From the NCBI RefSeq assembly GCF_000166135.1, contig NC_014666.1, positions 5,022,001 through 5,086,000 of the forward strand: a stretch of DNA of 64,000 bases, in the 5' to 3' direction. Origin of the DNA: Pseudofrankia inefficax. Lineage in GTDB: Bacteria > Actinomycetota > Actinomycetes > Frankiales > Frankiaceae. The notes under the pieces are model-generated. The model saw only the letters and a program-made list of their open reading frames with translations, ran no database searches and was not told the DNA's origin. The translations under genes and the position numbers were made by a program. Below are positions 51,817 to 64,000 of the stretch, piece by piece. Each line of letters starts with the position of its first letter. The stretch's first letter is position 1.

Positions 51817-51884
51817 CAAGGGTGCGCGGGCCCGAGAGCCCTCGTCCTCGCGTCGGATACACGTTCAGGGACCGGAGTCCGTCA

Positions 51885-53372
51885 GTGGCTGACACCCTCA
51901 GTTTCACGCAGCTGTACATCGACGGATGGGCCGTCGACGGAGGATCCGAGCCGCTCGAGGTCGAGGACCCCGCGACCGAGGAGGTCTTCACGACCGTGCC
52001 CACCGCGTCGCCCGCCCAGGTCGACGCGGCGATCGAGGCGGCCCGGCGCGCGTTCGACCGGGGCCAGTGGAGCCGTCAGCCGGTCAGCGAGCGGGTGTCC
52101 ACCCTCGCCCGGATGGCGCGGGTGCTCGCTGCGCGTCGCGCCGAGCTGATCGAGACGGTGATCCGCGAGACCGGCGCGACCCAGCTCGTAGCCCAGTGGG
52201 CCCAGGTCGACATGTCGCTCGACCAGGCCCGCCAGCTGCCCGAGCTGTTCGCCACGCTGCCCGAGTGGGAGCACAACGAGGTGCCGCTCGCCGAGTCGTT
52301 CGACCCGGCCGGCCGCGACGTGGTCATGAGCATCCGGCGGTACGAGCCCTGCGGCGTCGTCGCCGCGATCACGCCGTACAACTTCCCCCTGCAGACCGGC
52401 GTGTGGAAGGTCTTCTCCGCGCTCGCCGCCGGCTGCTCGGTCATCCTGCGGCCGAGCCCGCTCACGCCCCTGACCGCGCTGGCGCTCGGTGCCGCCGCCC
52501 AGGAGGCCGGGCTTCCGCCGGGCGTGCTCAACGTCGTGGTCGAGGCCGGTTCTGCCGGTGCCGAGCTGCTCACCAGCGACCGCCGGGTCGACTGCGTCTC
52601 CTTCACCGGGTCGACGGAGGTCGGCCGGCGCATCGCCGCGCAGGCCGCGCCGACGGTGAAGCGCCTGCTTCTCGAACTGGGCGGCAAGTCGGTGCAGCTC
52701 TACCTTCCCGACGCGCTCGGCCCGGGGGCCATCGAGGCCGGCGTGGCCACGGTCTTCGGGTCGCAGGCCGGCCAGGGCTGTGCTTTGCAGACGCGGATGC
52801 TGGTGCCGCGCGACCGCCTCGACGAATGCGTCGAGCGGGCCGGGGCCATGGCGCGGTCGCTGCGGGTGGGCAATCCGCGTGACCCGGAGACCGCGGTCGG
52901 GCCGGTCATCTCCGCCGCGCAGCGCGGCCGCGTCGAGCGGCTCGTCGCGGCCGGCGTCGAGGCGGGCGGGACGCTGGTCGCCGGCGGCGAGCGGCCGGCC
53001 CACCTCCCGGTCGGCTACTACGTCGCCCCGACGGTCGTGCGGGTCGAGGACAACCGCAACCCGCTCGCCCAGCACGAGGTCTTCGGCCCCGTCGTCACCA
53101 TCCAGGGCTACGACGACCTCGACCAGGCCGTCGAGATCACGAACGACTCGGAGTACGGCCTGGCGGCCGGCGTCTACACGGCCGACCTGAAGCTCGGCCT
53201 GAGTCTCTCGGACCGGATCCGTACCGGCACGGTCCAGATCAACCGGGGCGCGGCCAGCGCCTACACGCCCATGGGCGGCGTGAAGCAGAGCGGGATCGGC
53301 CGTGAACGCGGCGTCGCGGGTTTCCGGGAGTACCAGGAGCTCAAGCACGTCGTTCTCGCCGGCGCCCGCTGA
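51885..53372 (+). CDS. NAD(P)-dependent aldehyde dehydrogenase (module B)
   Basis: 495 residues. Glutamate in LLLELGGKSVQLYLPDALG, catalytic Cys in QAGQGCALQTRM, cofactor loop SFTGSTEVGRRIAAQ, C-terminal KQSGIGRERGVAGF. Shares long identical stretches with the module A enzyme (RPSPLTP, GSAGAELLTS). The GTG at 51885 has GGAG seven bases upstream; an earlier in-frame ATG at 51822 overlaps the promoter and was rejected. First gene of the plus-strand module B operon. Confidence 0.95.
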   Translation: MADTLSFTQLYIDGWAVDGGSEPLEVEDPATEEVFTTVPTASPAQVDAAIEAARRAFDRGQWSRQPVSERVSTLARMARVLAARRAELIETVIRETGATQLVAQWAQVDMSLDQARQLPELFATLPEWEHNEVPLAESFDPAGRDVVMSIRRYEPCGVVAAITPYNFPLQTGVWKVFSALAAGCSVILRPSPLTPLTALALGAAAQEAGLPPGVLNVVVEAGSAGAELLTSDRRVDCVSFTGSTEVGRRIAAQAAPTVKRLLLELGGKSVQLYLPDALGPGAIEAGVATVFGSQAGQGCALQTRMLVPRDRLDECVERAGAMARSLRVGNPRDPETAVGPVISAAQRGRVERLVAAGVEAGGTLVAGGERPAHLPVGYYVAPTVVRVEDNRNPLAQHEVFGPVVTIQGYDDLDQAVEITNDSEYGLAAGVYTADLKLGLSLSDRIRTGTVQINRGAASAYTPMGGVKQSGIGRERGVAGFREYQELKHVVLAGAR

Positions 53373-53388
53373 CGATCGGAACGGGGAC

Positions 53389-53592
53389 ATGGAGAAATCG
53401 GGCCTGGCCTTCTCGGTGGACCGGGAGTCGTGCCTGGGGTCGGGTTCCTGCGCCTTCCACGCGCCGGGGACCTTCGATCTCGACGACGACCTGAAGGTCG
53501 TCGTGCTGGCCGACGGCGACCCGGACGCCGCCGTCGCCGCCGCCATCGACTCCTGCCCGTCGGGAGCACTCAGACGCAAGGAGACGGGATGA
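53389..53592 (+). CDS. single-cluster ferredoxin, probable P450 donor (module B)
   Basis: 67 residues with C-x5-C (CLGSGSC) and distal CP (DSCPSGAL), a [3Fe-4S]-type pattern. ATG at 53389, 16 bases after the aldehyde dehydrogenase stop. Its stop overlaps the Ddn-like start (ATGA). Paralog of 8075-8293. The order differs from module A: here the Ddn-like gene separates ferredoxin and P450. Confidence 0.93.
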   Translation: MEKSGLAFSVDRESCLGSGSCAFHAPGTFDLDDDLKVVVLADGDPDAAVAAAIDSCPSGALRRKETG

Positions 53593-54053
53593 CCAGCGAC
53601 GACACGAGCACCAGCGAAGCCGGCGCCGCGGGGTACACCGCCCCCGACCTGGCGCTCTTCGGCGACGGGCACGTCGAGCGCTACCTCCAGACGGACGGCG
53701 CCGTCGGGCACGCCTGGAACGGCGTCACCTGCCTGCTGCTGTGGACGGTCGGCCGGCGGACCGGCCAGCGGCGGGTGAACCCGCTCATCTACGGCCGCGA
53801 CGGCGACGACTACCTGGTGATCGCCTCCCAGGGCGGCGCGCCGAACCATCCCGGCTGGTACCACAACCTGCTCGCCCAGCCCGAGGTCGAGGTGCAGGTG
53901 GAGGCGGACCGGTTCACCGCGCGGGCCCGCACCGCCGAGGGCGAGGAGCGCGACCGGCTCTGGACGCTGATGGCGGCCCGCTGGCCGAACTACGACGAGT
54001 ACACGAAGCGGACGACCCGGCGGATTCCCGTGGTCGTCCTGGAACGCGTCTGA
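53589..54053 (+). CDS. nitroreductase-family deazaflavin (F420)-type oxidoreductase, Ddn-like (module B)
   Basis: 154 residues, paralog of 6295-6729. Hallmarks: LWTVGRRTGQRRVNPLIYG, DGDDYLVIASQGGAPNHPGW, WYHNLLAQPEVEVQV, and the terminal NYDEYTKRTTRRIPVVVLE. The ATG at 53589 overlaps the ferredoxin stop, so the pair is translationally coupled, which suggests a shared role in electron transfer or substrate reduction. F420 binding is inferred from the family. Confidence 0.92.
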   Translation: MTSDDTSTSEAGAAGYTAPDLALFGDGHVERYLQTDGAVGHAWNGVTCLLLWTVGRRTGQRRVNPLIYGRDGDDYLVIASQGGAPNHPGWYHNLLAQPEVEVQVEADRFTARARTAEGEERDRLWTLMAARWPNYDEYTKRTTRRIPVVVLERV

Positions 54054-54131
54054 TGCCCGGCGCGAAACCGAACACGGGACTCGCAGAACCGGGCAGCGGC
54101 CGTGCCCGGACACGACAGGGGCTGGACTGAC

Positions 54132-55391
54132 ATGAGCGACATCGCGACCCTGGACCCGCGGCGCATCCGCGAGCTGTTCGACCTGCGCAGCGACGTCTAC
54201 GCGAACCGCGGCGGTGGCTTCGACCTCGACTTCTACCCGGAGCTGCACCGGCTACGCGAGACCGGCCCCGTGCACGCCGGCGTCGTCGGGCCGCTGGTCG
54301 GCTATCACGGCGAGGCCTTCTTCCAGGGCCTTCCCTTCCCCGACCTGCCGCACTTCTCGGTGTTCGACTTCGCCACCTGCCAGGACGTGCTGCGTGACGG
54401 CGACACCTTCGGGTCCAAGCCGACCGCGCCGGGCCCGGAGCTCGACCTGAGTGACAGCGTGATGCTCTACTTCGACGGCGACCGGCACCGGCGGTACCGC
54501 GCGCTGGTCCAGTCGTCCTTCGTCCCGAAGCGCGGTGCGTGGTGGTCCGAGCGCTGGATCGAGAGCACCGTCCAGGGCCTCATCGACACGTTCGAGCGCA
54601 ACGGCCGCGCGGACCTCAACGTCGAGTTCTGCGCCCCGATCCCGCTGCTGACGATCTGCGGCAGCTTCGGGATCGGGGTCGCCGACGCGCTGCGGGTCCG
54701 CGAGGCCGCGACGTCGGACGGCGGTGACCGCGCGCTGCTCGCCAGCATCCTGATGCCCATCATCAGCGAACGGCGCAAGGAGCCGCGGGACGACATCATC
54801 AGCGTGCTCGTCCGGGCCGAGGTCGCCGACGGCGACGGGCCACGCGAGGTCCTCTCCGACGTCGACATCCTGGGCTTCGCGCTGCTGCTGCTGGCCGCCG
54901 GCTCGGGCACCACCTGGAAGCAGATGGGCATCACCCTGCTCGCGCTGCTGCGTCATCCACGCTGGCTGGAGGCCGTCCGCGCCGACCGGACGCTGCTGCG
55001 CCCGGCGATCGAGGAGTCGCTGCGCTGGATGCCGACCGACCCGATGTTCACCCGGTACGCCCTGCGGGACACCGAGCTCGGCGGGGTCGCGATCCCGGCT
55101 CGGTCCGTGGTGCACCTGTGCTTCGCGGCGGCGAACCGGGACCCGGCCCGCTGGGAGCGGCCCGACGAGTTCGACCCGTCCCGCCCGCCGGGGGCCCACC
55201 TCGGCTTCGGCGGAGGCCCGCACATCTGCCTGGGCATGCACGTCGCGCGGGCCGAGATCCACACCGCCATCGACGCGCTGCTCGACCGCCTGCCGGGCCT
55301 TCGCCTCGATGAGGACGCCGAGGCCCCGCAGATCATCGGGATGTACGAGCGCGGCCCGACCTCGGTGCCGGTGGTCTGGGACACGCCGTGA
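54132..55391 (+). CDS. cytochrome P450 (module B)
   Basis: 419 residues. Heme loop FGGGPHICLGMHVARAE, ExxR EESLRWMP, I-helix LLAAGSGTTWKQMG. As in the module A P450, the acid of the acid-alcohol pair is glycine. N-terminal block GYHGEAFFQGLPFPDLPHFS is shared almost exactly with 6831-8078. Start ATG at 54132; an in-frame ATG at 54102 has no site. The GTG of the DUF35 gene overlaps its stop (GTGA). Confidence 0.95.
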   Translation: MSDIATLDPRRIRELFDLRSDVYANRGGGFDLDFYPELHRLRETGPVHAGVVGPLVGYHGEAFFQGLPFPDLPHFSVFDFATCQDVLRDGDTFGSKPTAPGPELDLSDSVMLYFDGDRHRRYRALVQSSFVPKRGAWWSERWIESTVQGLIDTFERNGRADLNVEFCAPIPLLTICGSFGIGVADALRVREAATSDGGDRALLASILMPIISERRKEPRDDIISVLVRAEVADGDGPREVLSDVDILGFALLLLAAGSGTTWKQMGITLLALLRHPRWLEAVRADRTLLRPAIEESLRWMPTDPMFTRYALRDTELGGVAIPARSVVHLCFAAANRDPARWERPDEFDPSRPPGAHLGFGGGPHICLGMHVARAEIHTAIDALLDRLPGLRLDEDAEAPQIIGMYERGPTSVPVVWDTP

Positions 55392-55930
55392 CCGGCCCGG
55401 GTATCGAGGGCGGTGCGCTGGTCGTCGAGGACTTCGAACGGGTGGCGCCGCCGCTGACCGACCGGACCGCGGCCTTCTGGACCTCGGGCGCCGACGGCCT
55501 GCTGCGGATCGCCCGCTGCCAGGACTGCGGCCGCTACCTGCACCCGCCGCGCCCGGTCTGCTCGGCCTGCCAGGGGCGCGGCGTCGCGTTCACCCCGGTG
55601 TCCGGGCGGGGCACCGTCTGGTCCTGGACGGTCAACCGGTACGGCTGGGTGCCGTCCATGCCACCGCCGTACCTGGTGGCCGACGTCGAGCTGGTCGAGC
55701 AGCCCGGTCTGCGGCTGCTGACCAACCTCGTCGACTGCCCGGCGGCCGAGGTGTACGTCGGCCTGCCCGTCCAGGTGTGCTTCGCCAGGGCCGGTGAGGC
55801 GTATATCCCGCTCTTCCGGCCGGAGGCCGGCAATGCACAGGGCCGGCCGGAGGCCGGCAATGCACAGGGCCGGCCGGAGGCCGGCAATGCACAGGGCCGG
55901 CCGGAGGCCGGAGGTGGGGATCAGCGATGA
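55388..55930 (+). CDS. DUF35 OB-fold zinc-ribbon protein with repetitive tail (module B)
   Basis: 180 residues. Zinc ribbon with four cysteines (CQDC ... CSAC), OB-fold strand VWSWTVNRYGW. The last 35 residues are a nine-residue repeat RPEAGNAQG, three full and one partial copy, coded by perfect 27-bp DNA repeats; this tail is absent from the module A protein and probably disordered. Start overlaps the P450 stop; stop overlaps the thiolase-like start. Probable partner of the thiolase-like protein. Confidence 0.93.
   Translation: MTGPGIEGGALVVEDFERVAPPLTDRTAAFWTSGADGLLRIARCQDCGRYLHPPRPVCSACQGRGVAFTPVSGRGTVWSWTVNRYGWVPSMPPPYLVADVELVEQPGLRLLTNLVDCPAAEVYVGLPVQVCFARAGEAYIPLFRPEAGNAQGRPEAGNAQGRPEAGNAQGRPEAGGGDQR
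55817..55912 (+). repeat. 27-bp tandem repeats coding the DUF35 tail
   Basis: Three identical 27-bp units (55817, 55844, 55871) and a 15-bp partial unit (55898-55912), all in frame, coding RPEAGNAQG. Expansion or contraction by slippage would keep the frame. Confidence 0.95.
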
Positions 55931-57087
55931 CCCGGGCTGAGGATCTGGCGGTGATCAGCGGGGCCGGGCGGTCACGGATCGGGCGGCGGCTCGGGATCGA
56001 CCCCTGGGTGCTGACCGCGGACGCCGCGCTGGCCGCGATCGCCGACGCCGGGCTGACGACGGCGGACATCGACGGGGTCTCGACCTACCCGGGCGCGTTC
56101 TGGTCGACGCCCGGGATCACCGGCGCCGGCGTGGACGACGTCCGGTCGATGCTCGGGCTGCGGCTGCGCTGGCACAACGGCGGCGGCGAGACCGCGGGTC
56201 AGCTCGGCTCGGTCATCAACGCGGTCCTGGCCGTGGCCGCCGGGTTCGCGACCCATGTCCTGTGCTTCCGCACAGTCTGGGAGTCCACCGCGCAGCAGGG
56301 CTACGCGGGCCGGGCGGCCACGCTGCTCGACGGCGGTGGCACGGCCGGGCAGCCGGTCCGCTTCGGCCGGGAGCTCACCCAGTGGACCACGCCGTTCGGG
56401 ATCGGCTACCCGTCGCACGCCGCCCTGGACATGCGGCGGCGCGTCGAGCTCGCCGGCGCCACCCGGGAGCAGTTCGCCCAGGTCGCGCTGGTCAGCCGGG
56501 CTCATGCCGCGCGCAACGAGGCGGCGGTCTACCGCGACCCGCTCACCCTGGAGACCTACCTGAACGCGCGGATGATCTCCGATCCGCTCTGCCTGTACGA
56601 CTGCGACGTCCCGGTGGACGGCTCGGTGGCGTTCGTCGTCTCGCGTGCCGGGAGCGTGCCGGATCCCGGCCGGGCGGTGAGCTTCGAGGGCCTGGGCAGC
56701 GCCTCCGGTTTCGACGAGGCAGCGGCGATGATGTGGACGCGCACCGACCTGAAGCCGATGGACGTCGACGTGGCGCAGGTCTACGACGGGTTCACGGTCT
56801 ACGCCCTGCGCTGGCTGGAGGCCCTCGGCTTCTGCGGCCGCTACGAGGCCACGGACTTCGTCGACGGCGGCACCCGCATCCGCGCCGGTGGCGAGCTGCC
56901 GCTCAACACCGGAGGCGGGCAGCTCTCCGCCGGGCGGATGCACGGGTACGGCGGCCTGCTCGAGGCCTGCCTCCAGCTGCGCGGCGAGGCGGGCGGCCAC
57001 CAGCTCGCCGACCGCCCCCAGGTCGCCGCCGTGACCAGCGGCGCCGAGAACTTCACCTCGTCGCTGCTGCTCGGCGCACCCCAATGA
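55927..57087 (+). CDS. thiolase-like (SCP2/lipid-transfer type) protein, probable aldolase subunit (module B)
   Basis: 386 residues, paralog of 11010-12230. AVISGAGRSRIGRRL opens the fold; the nucleophile helix reads GQLGSVINAVLAVAAGF without the reactive cysteine; VAQVYDGFTVYALRWLEALG and NTGGGQLSAGRMHGYGGLLE are conserved. DUF35 plus cysteine-less thiolase is the layout of Ltp2-ChsH2-type retro-aldolases. Overlaps the DUF35 stop by 4 bp (ATGA). Last gene of the module B operon. Confidence 0.9.
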   Translation: MTRAEDLAVISGAGRSRIGRRLGIDPWVLTADAALAAIADAGLTTADIDGVSTYPGAFWSTPGITGAGVDDVRSMLGLRLRWHNGGGETAGQLGSVINAVLAVAAGFATHVLCFRTVWESTAQQGYAGRAATLLDGGGTAGQPVRFGRELTQWTTPFGIGYPSHAALDMRRRVELAGATREQFAQVALVSRAHAARNEAAVYRDPLTLETYLNARMISDPLCLYDCDVPVDGSVAFVVSRAGSVPDPGRAVSFEGLGSASGFDEAAAMMWTRTDLKPMDVDVAQVYDGFTVYALRWLEALGFCGRYEATDFVDGGTRIRAGGELPLNTGGGQLSAGRMHGYGGLLEACLQLRGEAGGHQLADRPQVAAVTSGAENFTSSLLLGAPQ

Positions 57088-57185
57088 CCGTCCCACCACG
57101 CTGACCACCCACTCCCCCACCATCTCTTCGGCCGTGGCAGCGGCACCGTCCCTGGTGATCACGGCGGACGGCCTGGGGGCGGCCG

Positions 57186-57920
57186 GTGGGTAGCATCCGG
57201 ATCGTGCGAGACCCCCTCACCCCGGACCGGGTGATCGACGCCGCGAGATCGCTGCTGGAGCGCGACGGCGTCCGGGAGTTCTCCATGCGCAGGCTCGCCG
57301 CGGACCTCGGGGTGGCGCCCACCGCGATCTACTGGCACGTCGGCAACCGGGATCAGCTGATCGACGCCGTCGTCGACCAGACCTCGGATGTACTGGGCCA
57401 GGTGAGCACGGTCGGCCGGGCTCCGATGGACCGTGTCCTGTCGACCGCCTCGTCCCTGCTCGCGAACATCAACCAGCATCTCTGGCTGGTCGAGCTGGCT
57501 CATCAGCGCGGAATCCTGCTGGCGCTGCTCGGGCCGGCCAGGCGGTCGATCGCGGCGGAGTTCGCCGCCGCGGGCCTGCGCGGCCCGGGGATCGCCGACG
57601 CGACCAACGCGGTCGTCCAGCTCGTCGGTGACCACGTGACGGTCGGGTACTTCGCCAGGACCTGGCGCGCGCAGGCCGTCGGCGACGATCTTCAGGATTG
57701 TGCCGGCCCGGCCCTCGAGGAGGCCGCCGCCGCCGCGCTCTCCCGCATCCCGGACCGGGACCGGACCTTCGCCGTCATGCTGCGGGCGCTGGTCGCGGGG
57801 CTGTTGGCGGACTCGTCGGGGCCGGACGGCACCGACGATCAACCCGCCGCGAGGATCTCCGCGGGCGCTGGCCCGATCCTGGACGCCGTGGACGTCAGCA
57901 GGTCCGGGTCGAAGCCGTAG
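57186..57920 (+). CDS. TetR-family transcriptional regulator
   Basis: 244 residues (GTG at 57186; GTG 57204 is an alternative start). HTH: SMRRLAADLGVAPTAIYWHV followed by GNRDQLIDAVVDQTSD. The sensor domain is of TetR_C type. The 3' end overlaps the converging amidohydrolase by 82 bp, so the last 27 residues are coded on the strand opposite a real gene; the tail (ISAGAGPILDAV) may be an extension gained by loss of an earlier stop. It may act on the mirrored sites at 59076-59304, by inference. Confidence 0.88.
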   Translation: MGSIRIVRDPLTPDRVIDAARSLLERDGVREFSMRRLAADLGVAPTAIYWHVGNRDQLIDAVVDQTSDVLGQVSTVGRAPMDRVLSTASSLLANINQHLWLVELAHQRGILLALLGPARRSIAAEFAAAGLRGPGIADATNAVVQLVGDHVTVGYFARTWRAQAVGDDLQDCAGPALEEAAAAALSRIPDRDRTFAVMLRALVAGLLADSSGPDGTDDQPAARISAGAGPILDAVDVSRSGSKP

Positions 57921-59014
57921 AACTCGATCGCGTTGAGGCCGAGAATGCGCCGAGCCTCCTCGGCCGGCACGCCCGCGACCGCGGCGGAGATGGATTTCCT
58001 GCTGTCCGGCCACGTGCTTTCCGTGTGCGGGTAGTCGCTGCCCCACATCATCCGGCCCACGCCGGCCTCATGACGGCGACCCGCCTCGGCCGCGCCCATG
58101 AAGCTCACCCCGAACCAGATGTTCTGCCGCAGGTAGTCGCTCGGGCGCCGGCCCAGGTCCTGGATGAATGCCGGGCCGACGAGCTCCCGCATGGCGGCCG
58201 CCGACTCGTACTCGGCCGCGCCGGTGAGGATGGCGTGCAGCCCGTCATGCTTCACGGCGTCGTCGAGCACGCCGGCGAAGCTCTGCTCGGTGACGACGTA
58301 GCGCAGTGATGGATGGCGCTCGAAGGTCCCGGCCCAGATGAGCAGCCAGAGGTTGCGGTGCGAGTAGAAGGTGAACTCCTGCAGGTAGACGAGACGGGCC
58401 ATGCCCGGCTTGCCGCCGTAGTCCGGCGAGCCGCTGCCGCCGTGGTGGTTGATCGGCACGTCGAGGTCGGCGCAGGCGGCCCAGATCCGGTCGTAGCTCT
58501 CGTCCCAGATCGGCGGGATCGTGGCGCCCGGCGGGATCGACGGCAGCAGGATGCCGCCGGTCAGGCCGTTCTCCCGGGCCCAGGTGATCTCCGCGACGGC
58601 GGCGTCCGGGTCGTTGAACAGGATCTGCGCGATCCCGGCCCGCCGGCCCGGCGTCTCCTGGCAGAAGTCGGCGAGCCAGCGGTTGTGTGCCTGCAGCCCG
58701 GCCCAGCGGCGCTGGTAGTCCGCGGCCGACGGGGGCCCGGCGACGAGGCTGGTCTGCGGGCAGAACGGCGGCGCGGTGTTCGGGAAGATGACCTCCGCGA
58801 CGATGCCGTCCTCCTCCAGGTGGCGTAACCGCTTCGCGCTGTCCCAGTTCCGGTCCGCGTACACGTCGTCGAGATCGCTCCACGGGTTGACGAACTCACG
58901 CGCCCACCGGTCGAAATCGTCGCGCCATTCGGCGGCGAGATAGTCGCGGTATCCGAGAATCGGCGCGCCGGCATGACAGTCCGCCGACACGATCACCACT
59001 GGTTCGCTGGCCAT
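57839..59014 (-). CDS. amidohydrolase-2 (ACMSD-like) family metal enzyme
   Basis: 391 residues. N-terminal metal strand VVIVSADCHAGAPILGYRDY; internal histidines in PINHHGGSGSPDYGG; C-terminal acid in MMWGSDYPHTESTWPDS. ATG at 59014 starts with the conserved core; an in-frame ATG at 59104 lies within the regulatory repeats and was rejected. Divergent from a second family member at 59354 and overlapping the TetR gene at its 3' end. Confidence 0.92.
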   Translation of the reverse strand: MASEPVVIVSADCHAGAPILGYRDYLAAEWRDDFDRWAREFVNPWSDLDDVYADRNWDSAKRLRHLEEDGIVAEVIFPNTAPPFCPQTSLVAGPPSAADYQRRWAGLQAHNRWLADFCQETPGRRAGIAQILFNDPDAAVAEITWARENGLTGGILLPSIPPGATIPPIWDESYDRIWAACADLDVPINHHGGSGSPDYGGKPGMARLVYLQEFTFYSHRNLWLLIWAGTFERHPSLRYVVTEQSFAGVLDDAVKHDGLHAILTGAAEYESAAAMRELVGPAFIQDLGRRPSDYLRQNIWFGVSFMGAAEAGRRHEAGVGRMMWGSDYPHTESTWPDSRKSISAAVAGVPAEEARRILGLNAIEFYGFDPDLLTSTASRIGPAPAEILAAG

Positions 59015-59075
59015 CCGTGCGTCGAGTTCCACGACACCCTCCAGGAGCCCCTTCGCGCCGCCGCGGTCGGCGGCA

Positions 59076-59304
59076 CTGTAACGGGTGTAACATAGCAAGT
59101 ACATGAAGTCTTTGCTATGCCTCCGCGAAGCCAGCGGGATCGCCCGGCGCGGCGGCCGCGATCACGCCTGCAACCAAGGGCTCCGCCCAGGCGGGCGGCC
59201 ATCAGCCCTGGCACGGCGCCAACCGTGCACGCACCGTCACTCAGCCACACCCGGTCCGTACATAGCATCCGCCATCCTCGCATGCTATGTTACGCGTGTT
59301 ACAG
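59076..59304. promoter_or_regulatory. mirror-image pair of composite sites controlling two divergent amidohydrolases
   Basis: Left site 59076-59119: CTGTAAC-N5-TAACATAGCA, continuing as CATAGCAA-N13-TTGCTATG (59091-59098, 59112-59119). Right site 59261-59304: CATAGCAT-N13-ATGCTATG (59261-59268, 59282-59289), then the reverse complement of CTGTAAC-N5-TAACATAGCA (59283-59304). The two sites are inverted copies with the same arm length and the same spacer, each about 50-60 bp from its gene start. Both genes should answer to one regulator. Confidence 0.75.
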
Positions 59305-59353
59305 CCTGGGGACGGCCGAATCGCGCTGGCGACTGGATGGAACGGAGAGACCT

Positions 59354-60502
59354 GTGATCTTCGATGTCGACTGCCACTTAGAGGTCGCCTTCACGCTCGA
59401 AGAACATCCACTCAGGCGTTTCGCCGACCGTTTCCCGACGACCGACGACTACATCACCTTTGCCATCGCCGGCGAGTTGTACCGGGCCACTCCCGAGGAC
59501 TCCCGCCCGCCAGCCTCCGTCATCCAGGCATTTCTTCCCGACGCCAACCGGTCGGCGTCGGAGCAGGCGACGACGCCCGGCACCCGCGAACCGCGCTTCG
59601 TCGTGTCGAGCGCGGCCGAGCGGCTCGCCTGGATGGACCGGATCGGTATCGACAAGGCCCTCGTGAACCCGGGCCTGTACTTCGCCCTCTGCGACCTGCT
59701 GGGCGACGATCGCCCGACGGCCGTGGCACTGTGCAACGACTTCCTGGCAGAACGCCTGCAGGACGGCGGCGATCGGCTCTACCCGGTCAGCCTCGTCGAC
59801 TTCCGCGATCTCGACGGAGCCGTCCGCGAGCTGCGGCGGATGCGCGCGCGGGGCAGCCGGGCGTTCTGGATCCGCGCGGACGCGCCCGGCGGCGTCAGCC
59901 CCGCGCACCCGGACTGGGACAAGGTCTGGTCGGCGGCCACGAGCCTCGGCATGGTCGCGATCCTGCACGTGGGCAACGCCCCGGCGAACTTCGACGGCGG
60001 CTGGGGCAACGCCGGCTGGCTCGACCCGACCAGCACCGGTGCGGGCGGCTTCTTCGCGTTCGCCAACTCGGTGCGCCACCACGCGGCGGAGAAGATGCTC
60101 GCCGCGATGCTCTTCGGTGGCGTGTTCGGCCGCCACCCGAATCTCACGGTCCTCTGCGAGGAACTGCAGAACTCGTGGTTCCCGTCCTTCGTCGACCGGA
60201 TCACCGGGCTCGGCCACAGGACGCCAGGTTGGCCCTTCGGCCGGTCGGCTGGCGAGATGCTGCGGCACAACGTCCGCTCGGCGCCGCTGGTCGGGATGGG
60301 TGACCTCAATATCGCGCAGCTTCTGGCCTCCTACCCCGAAATGATGGTTTTCTCGTCCGACTACCCGCACGGAGAAGGGAACGCGGACCCCATCACGCTC
60401 ATCTCCGACGAACTCCAGGAATTCCCCGAGGACGTGCGATCGCGCTTCCTCGGCGAGAACATCGCCGAGGTCTTCACCCGGATGGGTGACCCGGTGACGT
60501 AG
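59354..60502 (+). CDS. amidohydrolase-2 (ACMSD-like) family metal enzyme
   Basis: 382 residues. N-terminal IFDVDCHLEVAF, histidines in AILHVGNAPANFDGG and NSVRHHAAEKMLAA, C-terminal acid in MVFSSDYPHGEGNADP. The GTG at 59354 has a GGAGAG site. Shares its control region with the divergent amidohydrolase at 57839. Followed by an aldehyde dehydrogenase 103 bp later on the same strand, possibly acting on related intermediates. Confidence 0.9.
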   Translation: MIFDVDCHLEVAFTLEEHPLRRFADRFPTTDDYITFAIAGELYRATPEDSRPPASVIQAFLPDANRSASEQATTPGTREPRFVVSSAAERLAWMDRIGIDKALVNPGLYFALCDLLGDDRPTAVALCNDFLAERLQDGGDRLYPVSLVDFRDLDGAVRELRRMRARGSRAFWIRADAPGGVSPAHPDWDKVWSAATSLGMVAILHVGNAPANFDGGWGNAGWLDPTSTGAGGFFAFANSVRHHAAEKMLAAMLFGGVFGRHPNLTVLCEELQNSWFPSFVDRITGLGHRTPGWPFGRSAGEMLRHNVRSAPLVGMGDLNIAQLLASYPEMMVFSSDYPHGEGNADPITLISDELQEFPEDVRSRFLGENIAEVFTRMGDPVT

Positions 60503-60605
60503 GCCGGTCTCCACATCACTGGCAGGTCCGACGGCCAGGAAACTCCTGCACGATTCAGCGCTTTACCTTTCATCTATGACCGACTGTTTGGGAGTACGGG
60601 ACGGA

Positions 60606-62012
60606 ATGAGCCTTCAGGAGACGGTCGACGGACTCGGCCAGCTGATCAACGGTGAACTGGTGACCAGCGGGGAGACGATCGCGGTCGTGAACCCGGCCAC
60701 CGGCGAGGTCGCCGCGCAGTGCCCGGCGGCCACCACCGCGATGGTCGACGACGCGATGGCGGCGGCAGCGGCGGCGTTCCCGGCGTGGTCCACCACGCCG
60801 GAGGCGCAGCGGCAGGCGGTGATCCGCCAGCTCGCGGACGCGATCGAGGCGGTCTATCCCGAGCTGGAGACGCTCGCGGCCGTCGAGAAGGGCAACGCGG
60901 GGGGCGCCGCCGAGGGGTTCGCCGCGATCTGGTTCGGCCGGCACATCGCCGAGCAGAACCTCGCGGTCGACGTCATCGAGGACACCCCGGACCGTCAGGT
61001 CACGGTCGTGCGGGCGCCCGTCGGGGTCGTCACCGCGATCGCGCCCTGGAACGCGCCCATGCTGATCATCGTCGAGAAGATCCTGACGGCGCTGCTCGTC
61101 GGCAACACGGTGGTGGCGAAGACCTCGCCGTTCACACCGCTGGCGACGCTGCGGATCGCGAAGGCGTGGAAGGACATCGCCCCGCCCGGGGTGGTCAACA
61201 TCCTGGCCGGCGGCGACGAGGTCGGGAAGGCCATGGTCGCCCACCCCACGGCGCGGATGATCAGCTTCACCGGCAGTGCCGCCGCCGGCCGGAGCATCGC
61301 CGCGACGGCGGCGACCACCCTCAAGAACGTCCTGCTGGAGCTCGGCGGCAACGACGCCGCGATCGTGCTCGGCGACGTGGACGTCACCAAGGTCGCCGAG
61401 GGGATCTTCGCGTCGGCGTTCCTGATGAGCGGGCAGGCCTGCGCGCTGGTCAAGCGGGTCTACGCGCACGACTCGATCTACGACGCCCTGGTCGCGGAGC
61501 TCGCCGAGCTCGCGCGGAAGAAGGCGGCCGAGCTTCCCCCGCTCACGACCAAGCCCCAGTTCGAGCGGGTCAAGATGCTGGTCGACGACGCCATCGCCCA
61601 CGGCGGCAAGGCCGTCACCGGCGGCGCGCCGACCGGGACCGGCTACTTCTACCCACCGACGATCATGACGGGCGTCGGCCCCGGGGTGCGGGTCGTGGAC
61701 GAGGAGCAGTTCGGCCCCGTGCTCCCGATCGTCCCCTTCAGCGACGTGGACTGGGCCATCGAGCAGGCCAACGGCACCGAGTACGGCCTGTGCGGATCGA
61801 TCTGGACCGCGGACGTGGCCCTCGGCGAGCAGCTCGCCACCCGCCTGGTCTGCGGCACCGTCTGGCTGAACCAGCACACGGAGATCGACCCGAAGATTCC
61901 GTTCGGCGGGGTGAAGTCCAGCGGCATCGGGCGCAACAACGGCCAGGTCGGCACCGACGCCTATGCGGAGCTCCAGACCCGGATCTTCTACAAGAAGTCC
62001 GACCGGGTCTAG
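60606..62012 (+). CDS. NAD(P)-dependent aldehyde dehydrogenase
   Basis: 468 residues. ELGGNDAAIVLGD carries the glutamate, LMSGQACALVKRV the catalytic Cys, and SFTGSAAAGRSIAA the cofactor loop. The C-terminus IPFGGVKSSGIGRNNG is typical. Less similar to the module A and B enzymes than they are to each other. ATG 60606 was preferred over 60576, which has no ribosome binding site. A shadow open frame fills its opposite strand. Confidence 0.94.
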   Translation: MSLQETVDGLGQLINGELVTSGETIAVVNPATGEVAAQCPAATTAMVDDAMAAAAAAFPAWSTTPEAQRQAVIRQLADAIEAVYPELETLAAVEKGNAGGAAEGFAAIWFGRHIAEQNLAVDVIEDTPDRQVTVVRAPVGVVTAIAPWNAPMLIIVEKILTALLVGNTVVAKTSPFTPLATLRIAKAWKDIAPPGVVNILAGGDEVGKAMVAHPTARMISFTGSAAAGRSIAATAATTLKNVLLELGGNDAAIVLGDVDVTKVAEGIFASAFLMSGQACALVKRVYAHDSIYDALVAELAELARKKAAELPPLTTKPQFERVKMLVDDAIAHGGKAVTGGAPTGTGYFYPPTIMTGVGPGVRVVDEEQFGPVLPIVPFSDVDWAIEQANGTEYGLCGSIWTADVALGEQLATRLVCGTVWLNQHTEIDPKIPFGGVKSSGIGRNNGQVGTDAYAELQTRIFYKKSDRV

Positions 62013-62080
62013 CACCGCGCGGGCGCCTCGCCCCATTCACCGCGGATACGCGCGGTCATCTCAGACGAGAGGGAAAGTTC

Positions 62081-62956
62081 GTGGAAGACCTCGATGGCAA
62101 GATTGCGGTCGTCACCGGCAGCGGCGGCCCGCACGGCATCGGCCGCGCGACCGCGAAGCTGCTCGCCGAGCAGGGCTGCACGGTCGTCCTGTCCGACGTC
62201 GACACCGCCGCGCTGGAGGCCACCGTCGGCGACCTCGCCGCGCTCGGTCTCAAGGTCGCCGGCGTGCCTGCCGACGTCGCCAGCCTCAGCTCGGTCCAGA
62301 ACCTGGCCGACACCGTCTTCTCCACCTACGGGCGGGTGGACATCGCCTTCCTGAACGCCGGGATCAGCGGCGGCGGAAGCCTGTTCGACGACAAGATCGA
62401 CGACTGGCACAAGGTGATCGACGTCAACTTCTACGGCATCCTGCACGGCATCAAGTCCTTCGTGCCGAGGATGGTCGCGCAGGGCACGCCAGGGCACGTG
62501 CTCGGCACGTCCTCCGGAGCCGGCGCCGTCGGGGTCATGTACCAGACGCCGGCCTACTCCGCCTCCAAGGCCGCCGTCTGCACCCTGCTCGAAGCGCTGT
62601 ACGGGCAGCTGCGGGACATGAACGCGCAGATCAAGGCACACGTCGTGCTGCCACCGCTGACCAGGACGAACCTGGCCGGCGACCCGCAGCTGATGGGTTT
62701 CGTCCAGCAGGGCCTCGAGGCCGGCGGCGCGACGGCCGTCCTGGCCGAGCCCCAGGACGTCGCGGTGACCGTCCTGGAGGCGATCCGCTCCGGGAACTTC
62801 TGGGCCCACCACGACCACGAGGCCGACAAGCGGCTGAGTGAGGGCAGGTTCGCCGCCGACATCGACTGGCAGGACGAGATCATCCGGGCTCGGGCGACGG
62901 CCATCATCGACCGGTCGGCGCCCGACCCGTACCTGTGGGGCATGAAGTCGGGCTGA
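62081..62956 (+). CDS. short-chain dehydrogenase/reductase
   Basis: 291 residues. Cofactor motif VTGSGGPHGIGRATAKLLAE (a GxxxGIG variant with an inserted Gly-Pro-His), FLNAGISGGG (NAG), Ser in GTSSGAGA, YSASKAA (Tyr, Lys). The GTG at 62081 has an AGGGAAAG site. Classical SDR, not of the mycofactocin type. It follows the aldehyde dehydrogenase by 68 bp; a strong hairpin 50 bp downstream ends the unit. An alcohol-aldehyde-acid pair of steps is plausible. Confidence 0.93.
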   Translation: MEDLDGKIAVVTGSGGPHGIGRATAKLLAEQGCTVVLSDVDTAALEATVGDLAALGLKVAGVPADVASLSSVQNLADTVFSTYGRVDIAFLNAGISGGGSLFDDKIDDWHKVIDVNFYGILHGIKSFVPRMVAQGTPGHVLGTSSGAGAVGVMYQTPAYSASKAAVCTLLEALYGQLRDMNAQIKAHVVLPPLTRTNLAGDPQLMGFVQQGLEAGGATAVLAEPQDVAVTVLEAIRSGNFWAHHDHEADKRLSEGRFAADIDWQDEIIRARATAIIDRSAPDPYLWGMKSG

Positions 62957-63006
62957 CCGCCTCCCCCGCACCATGCGGCGCATCGACGCCGCACGGCACG
63001 CACCCT

Positions 63007-63040
63007 GGTGCTGCCCGGCCCTGACCGGCCGGGCAGCACC
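63007..63040 (+). terminator. strong hairpin terminator after the SDR
   Basis: Perfect 14-bp stem GGTGCTGCCCGGCC (63007-63020) with GGCCGGGCAGCACC (63027-63040), loop of 6; no U-tract, as is common in GC-rich actinobacteria. Confidence 0.7.
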
Positions 63041-63124
63041 CGCCGCCACGCGGCCGCACAGCTGACCCGGGTCCGGGAGCCTGCCGTCCATCCGACCGGC
63101 AGGTGACCCGAGCCATGCCCATTG

Positions 63125-63155
63125 ATAGTTTCTACTATGTGGCGACTACCATAGA
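63125..63155. promoter_or_regulatory. operator-like repeats upstream of the last binding protein
   Basis: ATAGT-TTCT-ACTAT (63125-63138), a 5-4-5 inverted repeat, and CTATG-N10-CATAG (63135-63154) overlap in an AT-rich patch about 150 bp before the ATG at 63300. A TACTAT box within could be a -10; no convincing -35 was found. Confidence 0.4.
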
Positions 63156-63157
63156 GC

Positions 63158-63231
63158 GATCGTCCCGCCGGCCCTCGCTGGGCCCGCCGCATCGTCGCGG
63201 CCAGCCCAGCGAGGGCCGAAATCGTTGATCT
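63158..63231. repeat. dispersed palindrome, diverged copy 5, in the leader of the binding-protein gene
   Basis: A 14-bp perfect stem (63169-63182 with 63205-63218) whose outer parts GATCG at 63158 and GAGGGCCGAAATCGTTGATC at 63211 match the ends of the other four copies; total length again about 75 bp. Unlike three of the others it lies upstream of a gene and could form a 5' UTR hairpin. Membership is less certain than for copies 1-4. Confidence 0.55.
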
Positions 63232-63299
63232 CGCCCTAGCAGCCGCCACGTCGAGAAACCATCCCGACCTCCTTTGGTCGGCAAGAGAAGGAGACAGCT

Positions 63300-64000
63300 A
63301 TGCGGCGACCTCACCGGGTTGCTTTAGTCGTGACGGTGGCCTGCGCCGTAGGCCTCGCCGGTTGCGGCGGCAGCAGTGGCGGCGGCAGCGCCGCCCCGGT
63401 CACGGTGGACCCGGCGCTGACGAAGCTGGGCCCGGATCACGGCTGGAGCCAGACCAACGTCACCGCCGACGCCGCCTCGCTCAAATGCAACACGGCGGCC
63501 TCAGATCCGAACCGCGGCATCACCGCGACGTCCATCAAGATCGGCGGGCTGGTCTCTGTTACCAGCCCCGCCGGCGCCGCGATGGGTGACACGACCGCCG
63601 GCGCCGCGGCGCGGTTCGGCCGCGCCAACGCGGACGGCGGCGTCAACGGCCGAAAGATCGATTTTCTGGACGTGCGTGACGACGGCAGCGACGCGGCCCG
63701 CGACGCCGACCAGGCCAAGGCGATCGTCGAGAAGGACAAGCCCTTCGCGTCGATCGTGGCGACCACCAACGGGAACTACCTCGACTCGTTCTGCTCGGGC
63801 GACATGCCGTTCTTCGGCTGGGGCAACAACACCGGCTTCTGCGGCAACGTGATCGGCTTCGGCATCACGGGCTGCCAGACGCCGGCGACCGGCAGCCAGC
63901 GCGCGGTCGACACCACCGGTGGCCTGCTGGTGGGCAAGTCCGTCCCCGCCGGCGCCGCCAAGACCCTCGCGCTCATCGGGCTGGACAACGACGCGGCTCG
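63300..64000 (+). CDS. ABC importer substrate-binding lipoprotein, cut by window end
   Basis: Opens at ATG 63300 behind AAGGAG and runs past the window end, 233 complete residues visible. Signal peptide with lipobox LAGC (Cys22), Ser/Gly linker, then the type I binding domain: ITATSIKIGGLVSVTSPAGA, VNGRKIDFLDVRDDGSD, PFFGWGNNTGFCGNVIGF. Several cysteines in the mature part (CNTAAS, FCSGD, GFCGN, GCQTP) may form disulfides. Permease and ATPase genes may lie beyond the window. Confidence 0.9.
   Translation, partial: MRRPHRVALVVTVACAVGLAGCGGSSGGGSAAPVTVDPALTKLGPDHGWSQTNVTADAASLKCNTAASDPNRGITATSIKIGGLVSVTSPAGAAMGDTTAGAAARFGRANADGGVNGRKIDFLDVRDDGSDAARDADQAKAIVEKDKPFASIVATTNGNYLDSFCSGDMPFFGWGNNTGFCGNVIGFGITGCQTPATGSQRAVDTTGGLLVGKSVPAGAAKTLALIGLDNDAA

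Follow-up and report, generated by a model that had tools for sequence, protein, structure and literature searches.

Genomic context of the two amidohydrolase genes

The element under study lies within the window, i.e., the whole 64-kb stretch of DNA that was analyzed, between two divergent genes encoding Amidohydro_2 proteins, designated here as amidohydrolase 1 and amidohydrolase 2 (Table 1). The GTG starts of both genes were picked by us from the sequence, and the reading frames were checked. TetR-A, the TetR-like protein encoded tail-to-tail with amidohydrolase 1, carries a TetR_N helix-turn-helix domain (PF00440) that scored 40.5 bits against a cut-off of 24. The same domain was found in TetR-D, encoded beyond the end of the window (E 5.6e-10, 39.3 bits, cut-off 24). 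None of the NCBIfam models listed for the TetR proteins at 57186 and 51058 reached its cut-off. The gene starting at 63300 is lipoprotein-like and is 47% homologous to a Pfam Peripla_BP_6 protein of G002, another genome of the genus.

Positions 51822-63998 of the window, together with the next 39 kb (L021, L022), make up a catabolic island. Its Pfam content comprises aldehyde dehydrogenase, P450, thiolase C-terminal and ChsH2-like proteins, acyl-CoA dehydrogenases, enoyl-CoA hydratase, short-chain dehydrogenase and a periplasmic binding protein. Many island genes have orthologues in two other genomes of the genus (G006 and G002), where their order is changed.

Table 1. Genes and sequence elements at the amidohydrolase locus (window positions, except for TetR-D)
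Feature	Position	Strand	Remark
TetR-A, tail-to-tail with amidohydrolase 1; proposed module 1 repressor	57186..57920	+	TetR_N E 2.4e-10
Amidohydrolase 1 (Pfam Amidohydro_2), GTG start after GGAGGG	57839..59032	-	E 1.4e-23 (57839-59014)
Left composite, toward amidohydrolase 1: CATAGC-N20-ATGTTAC-N4-GTTACAG	59076..59119	-	0 mismatches
Module 1 left, 16-bp palindrome TGTWAC-N4-GTWACA, proposed TetR-A operator	59077..59092	-	exact copy
Candidate -10 TATGTT, TGC before; left promoter	59089..59094	-	by eye; no recognizable -35
Module 2 left, CATAGC arm in the -35 region	59114..59119	-	same register in 6/6 composites
Right composite, toward amidohydrolase 2: CATAGC-N20-ATGTTAC-N4-GTTACAG	59261..59304	+	0 mismatches
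Module 2 right, CATAGC arm in the -35 region	59261..59266	+	same register in 6/6 composites
CATAGCATCCGCCATC, degenerate compact TetR-D-type site from right CATAGC arm	59261..59276	+	1 mismatch to SATAGYRNNYRCTATS
Candidate -10 TATGTT, TGC before; right promoter	59286..59291	+	by eye; no recognizable -35
Module 1 right, 16-bp palindrome TGTWAC-N4-GTWACA, proposed TetR-A operator	59288..59303	+	exact copy
Amidohydrolase 2 (Pfam Amidohydro_2), GTG start	59354..60502	+	Pfam E 1.1e-16
Aldehyde dehydrogenase, downstream of amidohydrolase 2	60576..62012	+	Pfam E 1.3e-129
Compact TetR-D-type operator CATAGTAGAAACTATC (minus strand), upstream of gene at 63300	63124..63139	.	1 mismatch
TetR-D, 3.7 kb past window end; proposed module 2 repressor	C1:5089744-5090379		TetR_N

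A composite element at both promoters

An earlier note on this DNA had described composite sites in mirror orientation in front of the two genes, and this description was borne out, with both motifs exact. CTGTAAC-N5-TAACATAGCA is present at 59076-59097 (+) and 59283-59304 (-) with 0 mismatches and, at up to 3 mismatches, these are its only 2 sites in the 64 kb (expected 0.00 from 100 shuffles). The 29-bp palindrome CATAGCA-N15-TGCTATG, given in the note as CATAGCAW-N13-WTGCTATG, is found at 59091-59119 and 59261-59289 (expected 0.00 in shuffled sequence). In a scan of the window's own genome (G000; one contig of 8,815,781 bases), the 20-bp part, TGCTATGTTAC-N4-GTTAC, was matched exactly by these 2 copies and with 3 mismatches by a single further place. 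When the left and right copies of the composite are compared, 20/20 specified positions are identical and just 2/15 spacer positions agree.

What looks like a direct repeat inside the element, GTTAC-N4-GTTAC, also fits an inverted repeat, TGTWAC-N4-GTWACA (module 1), which is perfect in one relative (TGTAAC-GCCC-GTTACA); the CATAGC arm is termed module 2. The distance from the inner 16-bp palindrome to the GTG start is 44 nt for amidohydrolase 1 and 50 nt for amidohydrolase 2. A sigma-70 scan of 58950-59420 returned 0 promoters, so the promoter that we place here is one that we infer. A search of Rfam with 58900-59500 gave 0 matches at E ≤ 1 to the cis-acting RNA elements of that collection. 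The 29-bp palindrome may be partly fortuitous, its right arm being perhaps just an extended -10, because G014, a genome of another genus, has TGCTATGTTAC with no left arm beside it.

Conservation of the element through rearrangement

Relatives were searched in a genus set of 8 genomes, a family set of 35 and a class set of 393; the order-level search covered the same 35 genomes as the family set. At up to 2 mismatches, the composite gave 6 sites in the 393 class genomes, all of them in three species of the genus. The genomes that carry it, 3/8 in the genus set (G000, G002 and G006), have two copies apiece. No composite was found in the remaining 32/35 family genomes at up to 3 mismatches, or in the remaining 390/393 class genomes at up to 2. 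In pairwise comparisons of the 6 sites, 19 to 20 of the 20 specified positions were alike and 2 to 13 of the 15 spacer positions, with the top spacer agreement between orthologous promoters. The two copies within one genome agree at 9/15 spacer and 20/20 motif positions in G002, and at 2/15 and 19/20 in G006. The spacing between the modules is the same in 6/6 composites.

The composites precede orthologous genes whose neighbors are rearranged. In G002 the two sites are 19.5 kb apart, and the upstream neighbors are a periplasmic-binding-protein gene and an SMP-30-like gene, while in G006 the two sites are on separate contigs. What is left of amidohydrolase 2 in G006 is part of the leader and the C-terminal end; the element is intact and the aldehyde dehydrogenase gene comes next. 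At this place (G006:C178:3801-4250; L005) the gene is internally deleted, and the ribosome-binding region runs into the C-terminal part. In the loci of three distant amidohydrolase 2 relatives from outside the family (44-48% identical; L024-L026), neither an exact module 1 nor ATAG-N(0-22)-CTAT was found.

The composite element is real and well conserved, being kept before the orthologous genes in G002 and G006. Because the motif positions agree while the spacers differ across 6 sites in 3 species, and because the element follows its genes through rearrangement, the comparison supports selection on the element, as the earlier note had proposed.

Module 1 and TetR-A

Module 1 has the form of a TetR-type operator, a palindrome of about 15 to 20 bp at the promoter of a gene linked to TetR-A. 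Its only exact copies in the whole of G000 are the 2 described here, and at up to 2 mismatches it was found nowhere but in the 6 composites across the 10 contig sets scanned. TetR-A is present in 3/8 genus genomes, identical to the 3 with the composite, and 3/3 of its orthologue loci in the genus have module 1. The class search for TetR-A, in which the best 9 candidates per genome were scored, gave at least 11/296 genomes at E ≤ 1e-30 and added orthologues of 62-64% identity in G026, G014 and G013.

Six family genomes were seen to have TetR-A at ≥62% identity, and 5/6 of them have module 1 just 5' of the amidohydrolase 1 orthologue. In the sixth, G013, no amidohydrolase 1 is present on the 7.1-kb contig, which is cut off at the TetR-A end. 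Of the 5, two belong to other genera, with module 1 exact in G026 and at 1 mismatch in G014, and with amidohydrolase 1 orthologues that are 80-81% and 69-74% identical, respectively. The CATAGC arm is absent from its expected place in both. TetR-A adjoins amidohydrolase 1 in G000, G006 and G014, and its recognition helix, APTAIYWHVGNR, is invariant in 5/5 aligned proteins and also in G013.

Outside this set of orthologues the association was not seen. Amidohydrolase 1 paralogues in the genus gave 23 matches, and the 12 loci examined (43-50% identity) were all without either motif at up to 1 mismatch. Likewise, six TetR-A homologues (38-42%) from outside the family had no module 1 at up to 1 mismatch within 1.5 kb. 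TetR proteins often autoregulate; module 1 was not found before TetR-A itself at up to 2 mismatches in the scanned contig sets, which gives no sign of autoregulation through this motif. At up to 1 mismatch, the genus genomes showed no enrichment of module 1 beyond 5 places against 4 for the reversed motif in G000, and in the other 7 the count fell below that of the reversed motif.

That TetR-A binds module 1 is probable, by a modest margin over an even chance. The arguments from distribution rest on 8 and 6 genomes, and since TetR-A, amidohydrolase 1 and module 1 are found as a set, some other gene that travels with them could be the regulator.

Palindromes of the module 1 form were also found beside genes of another kind. 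Two of the 8 exact matches to module 1 in the genus fall outside the composites, at G004:C1:6122456 and G006:C111:42635. Each precedes a gene with a ChrB_N domain, and the DNA around the two is homologous (89% over 2.1 kb); G004 is without TetR-A. In G000, 1 of 3 places with one mismatch (6378584) is 178 nt from another ChrB_N gene. The sites are at 1956-1971 of L090 (G004), 2035-2050 of L091 (G006) and 1784-1799 of L093 (own genome). TGTAAC-N4-GTTACA beside ChrB_N genes is therefore a candidate operator of a ChrB-type regulator, and the module 1 form may serve this other regulator too instead of being exclusive to TetR-A promoters. These palindromes lower the odds both for TetR-A on module 1 and for the whole model proposed below.

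The CATAGC arm and a candidate compact operator of the island

CATAGC/GCTATG is a half-site of a compact operator with the consensus SATAGYR-NN-YRCTATS. ATAG-N(g)-CTAT was counted at every g from 0 to 60 over 238 kb, from four contig sets that were chosen for the composite when the compact operator had yet to be noticed. It occurred 14 times at g = 6 and 5 times at g = 19, where every case is a composite; the only other gaps represented were g = 9 and g = 45, with one case apiece. The full consensus at up to 1 mismatch had 19 sites outside composites in the 238 kb versus 1 for the reversed pattern. For the 373 kb in all, the g = 6 count was 31 and the compact pattern gave 36 versus 1 reversed, totals that are biased upward, as the added contigs were chosen because they hold compact sites. 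For this larger set, resampled sequence gave 0.0 occurrences at g = 6 (20 rounds). In the gap control with permuted 4-mers, counts went up to 9 at one gap or another, and at gap 19 there were 5 for TGAA. From 120 nt inside to 450 nt before a called gene start lay 30/36 compact sites, versus 41% of random positions, the calls being those of a simple GC-position caller that overlooked two of the genes discussed here, TetR-D of G000 and TetR-A of G002.

Genome-wide, compact places versus control were 11/1 in G002, 6/3 in G005, 5/0 in G007 and 4/2 in both G000 and G006, where the excess is small; G001, G003 and G004 showed no excess (1/3, 2/2 and 2/3). TetR-D is present in 5/8 genus genomes, which are the 5 with the compact excess, and at E ≤ 1e-15 it is absent from G001, G003 and G004. 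The other-genus genome G014 encodes a relative of TetR-D (68%), and compact sites are found 1.6 and 6.2 kb from it. Compact sites are also found in genomes without a TetR-A match (G005 and G007). In G002 and G005 the aldehyde dehydrogenase gene carries a compact site, and in G006 the composite. An operator that stands before many island genes and co-occurs with TetR-D points to a TetR-D regulon, with binding predicted.

Through its CATAGC arm, the composite includes a compact site with 1 mismatch in 4/6 cases, 3 of them orthologous promoters. The arm is a lone half-site in the 2/6 others, the left composite of G000 and that of amidohydrolase 1 in G006. On these grounds the chances that TetR-D binds module 2 appear evenly balanced.

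Several further observations were made on the compact operator. Two copies, 23 bp apart from start to start, lie upstream of one Amidohydro_2 gene in G007 (C65:1702-1740; L045). The compact operator GATAGCATTCACTATG is found far from the island at G000:C1:6816998 and G006:C99:72444; the G000 site coincides with the called start of a gene for a family III CoA-transferase, and the homologues of this gene in G005 and G002 belong to the island. In G026 (L087, about 17.71 kb), GGTAGCAGCCACTATT, downstream of module 1, resembles a compact site with two mismatches, possibly a second arrangement of the two modules. A further island TetR (G000 75278-76297; G002 orthologue 80%) was not adopted as the reader of the compact operator, as blastp gave no orthologue among the called genes of the G006 stretches examined; it may act at other sites.

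A proposed two-module repressor operator and the alternatives to it

From the sequences, their conservation, their distribution and their co-occurrence, we propose that each amidohydrolase promoter is a two-module repressor operator, with TetR-A acting on module 1 and the CATAGC arm tied to the TetR-D regulon. This is the best model overall, and we give it a probability of roughly 0.55. The end of the candidate -10 and the expected start point would both lie under module 1, which is a usual place for a TetR repressor. A TetR-A dimer on module 1 would then block RNA polymerase at both divergent promoters, and a pathway metabolite would release it. The CATAGC arm, 20 bp upstream of ATGTTAC, would act as a half-site of SATAGYR-NN-YRCTATS bound by TetR-D, and would thereby tie both promoters to the TetR-D regulon of the catabolic island.

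The earlier note had attributed both kinds of half-site to one shared regulator, possibly the TetR protein at 57186. That protein, TetR-A, stands as a good candidate for module 1, not for both kinds of half-site, and the idea of a single reader is probably wrong. It would have one protein or oligomer contact CATAGC, GCTATG and both GTTAC boxes of the 44-bp element, which is in keeping with the identical spacing between the parts in 6/6 composites and with the presence of TetR-A in the same 3/8 genus genomes as the composite. Since the modules are separable, however, this is distinctly unlikely: module 1 occurs without CATAGC in two other genera that share the TetR recognition helix, and the CATAGC half-sites form an operator family of their own that tracks TetR-D, even where no TetR-A match is present (G005 and G007). 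It is similarly improbable that module 1 is read by another regulator of TGTAAC-N4-GTTACA, such as a ChrB-type protein, instead of TetR-A. The exact palindromes of G004 and G006, each in front of a ChrB_N gene, would fit such a reader, as would the one-mismatch copy in G000, yet TetR-A, module 1 and amidohydrolase 1 are found together in 5/5 genomes with a visible promoter, across three genera, and TetR-A is the direct neighbor of amidohydrolase 1 in three of these genomes (the ChrB_N genes examined are from G000, G004 and G006). That the two copies are a recent promoter duplication devoid of special regulatory meaning is hardly credible; the same layout at two neighboring genes of one protein family would be expected from it, but not spacers that agree at 2/15 positions when the motif agrees at 20/20, nor 9/15 with 20/20 within G002 and 2/15 with 19/20 within G006.

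Other readings concern the CATAGC arm. TetR-D or a relative may bind CATAGCA-N15-TGCTATG as a pair of dimers, each on an outer half-site and a degenerate inner one. Such binding is described for QacR and CprB (PMC4150764). The outer half-sites fit the TetR-D consensus in 6/6 (left) and 5/6 (right) composites, and the inner half-site completes a one-mismatch compact site in 4/6. Nonetheless, the left inner half-site is missing in two composites, TGCTATG is found without a partner in G014, and TGGAATG replaces the right arm at the amidohydrolase 2 site of G002, all of which makes this arrangement doubtful. The arm may instead be an activator site or a non-standard -35, leaving module 1 as the sole repressor operator. 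Its location in the -35 region, where its distance to the candidate -10 is constant, agrees with this, as does the lack of a promoter in the sigma-70 scan, but the arm has the sequence of a half-site from an operator family concentrated in the same islands, and we consider such a role unlikely. A joint complex of TetR-A and TetR-D on the composite is a more speculative variant of the two-module operator: the half-sites with a 19-bp gap, instead of the usual 6-bp one, would be readable only beside bound TetR-A, giving an AND-type switch for which both inducers are needed. We hold this to be quite improbable.

Comparison with known systems and implications

The proposed role of TetR-A is similar to that of TetR on tetO, in that a TetR-like gene lies beside a controlled gene and a short inverted repeat spans the core promoter. 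The N-terminal region of TetR-A matches ActR, SimR and Tet repressors, and its helix PTAIYWHV is akin to that of the Tet repressor. The sequence TGTWAC-N4-GTWACA differs from tetO. Unlike in that type of system, module 1 is present at two divergent amidohydrolase promoters and not at an efflux pump, and TetR-A is tail-to-tail, not divergent, with no operator seen at its own promoter.

KstR and KstR2 are TetR-family repressors of actinobacterial catabolic regulons. The island is similar to those systems in that one compact palindrome recurs in front of genes for acyl-CoA dehydrogenase, thiolase-like and dehydrogenase proteins, with a TetR gene in the island itself. SATAGYR-NN-YRCTATS is not known as a KstR or KstR2 motif.

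The composite also shares with the operators of QacR and CprB, which bind as pairs of dimers, a length and a number of half-sites beyond what one dimer uses (PMC4150764). It differs from them in that four half-sites are not seen in every composite copy. Judged by title and abstract, none of the papers listed in the literature searches treats this operator. Its parts are of known kind, and their combination appears to be new.

A motif that was once spotted by eye has been resolved into modules by comparing related genera. This provides a testable wiring for a Frankia-type catabolic island: about 40 sites, for which two operators and as many TetR proteins are predicted. Should the split arrangement of half-sites be real, a local repressor would have been grafted onto promoters of an existing regulon, and TetR half-sites would be usable at an unusual spacing.
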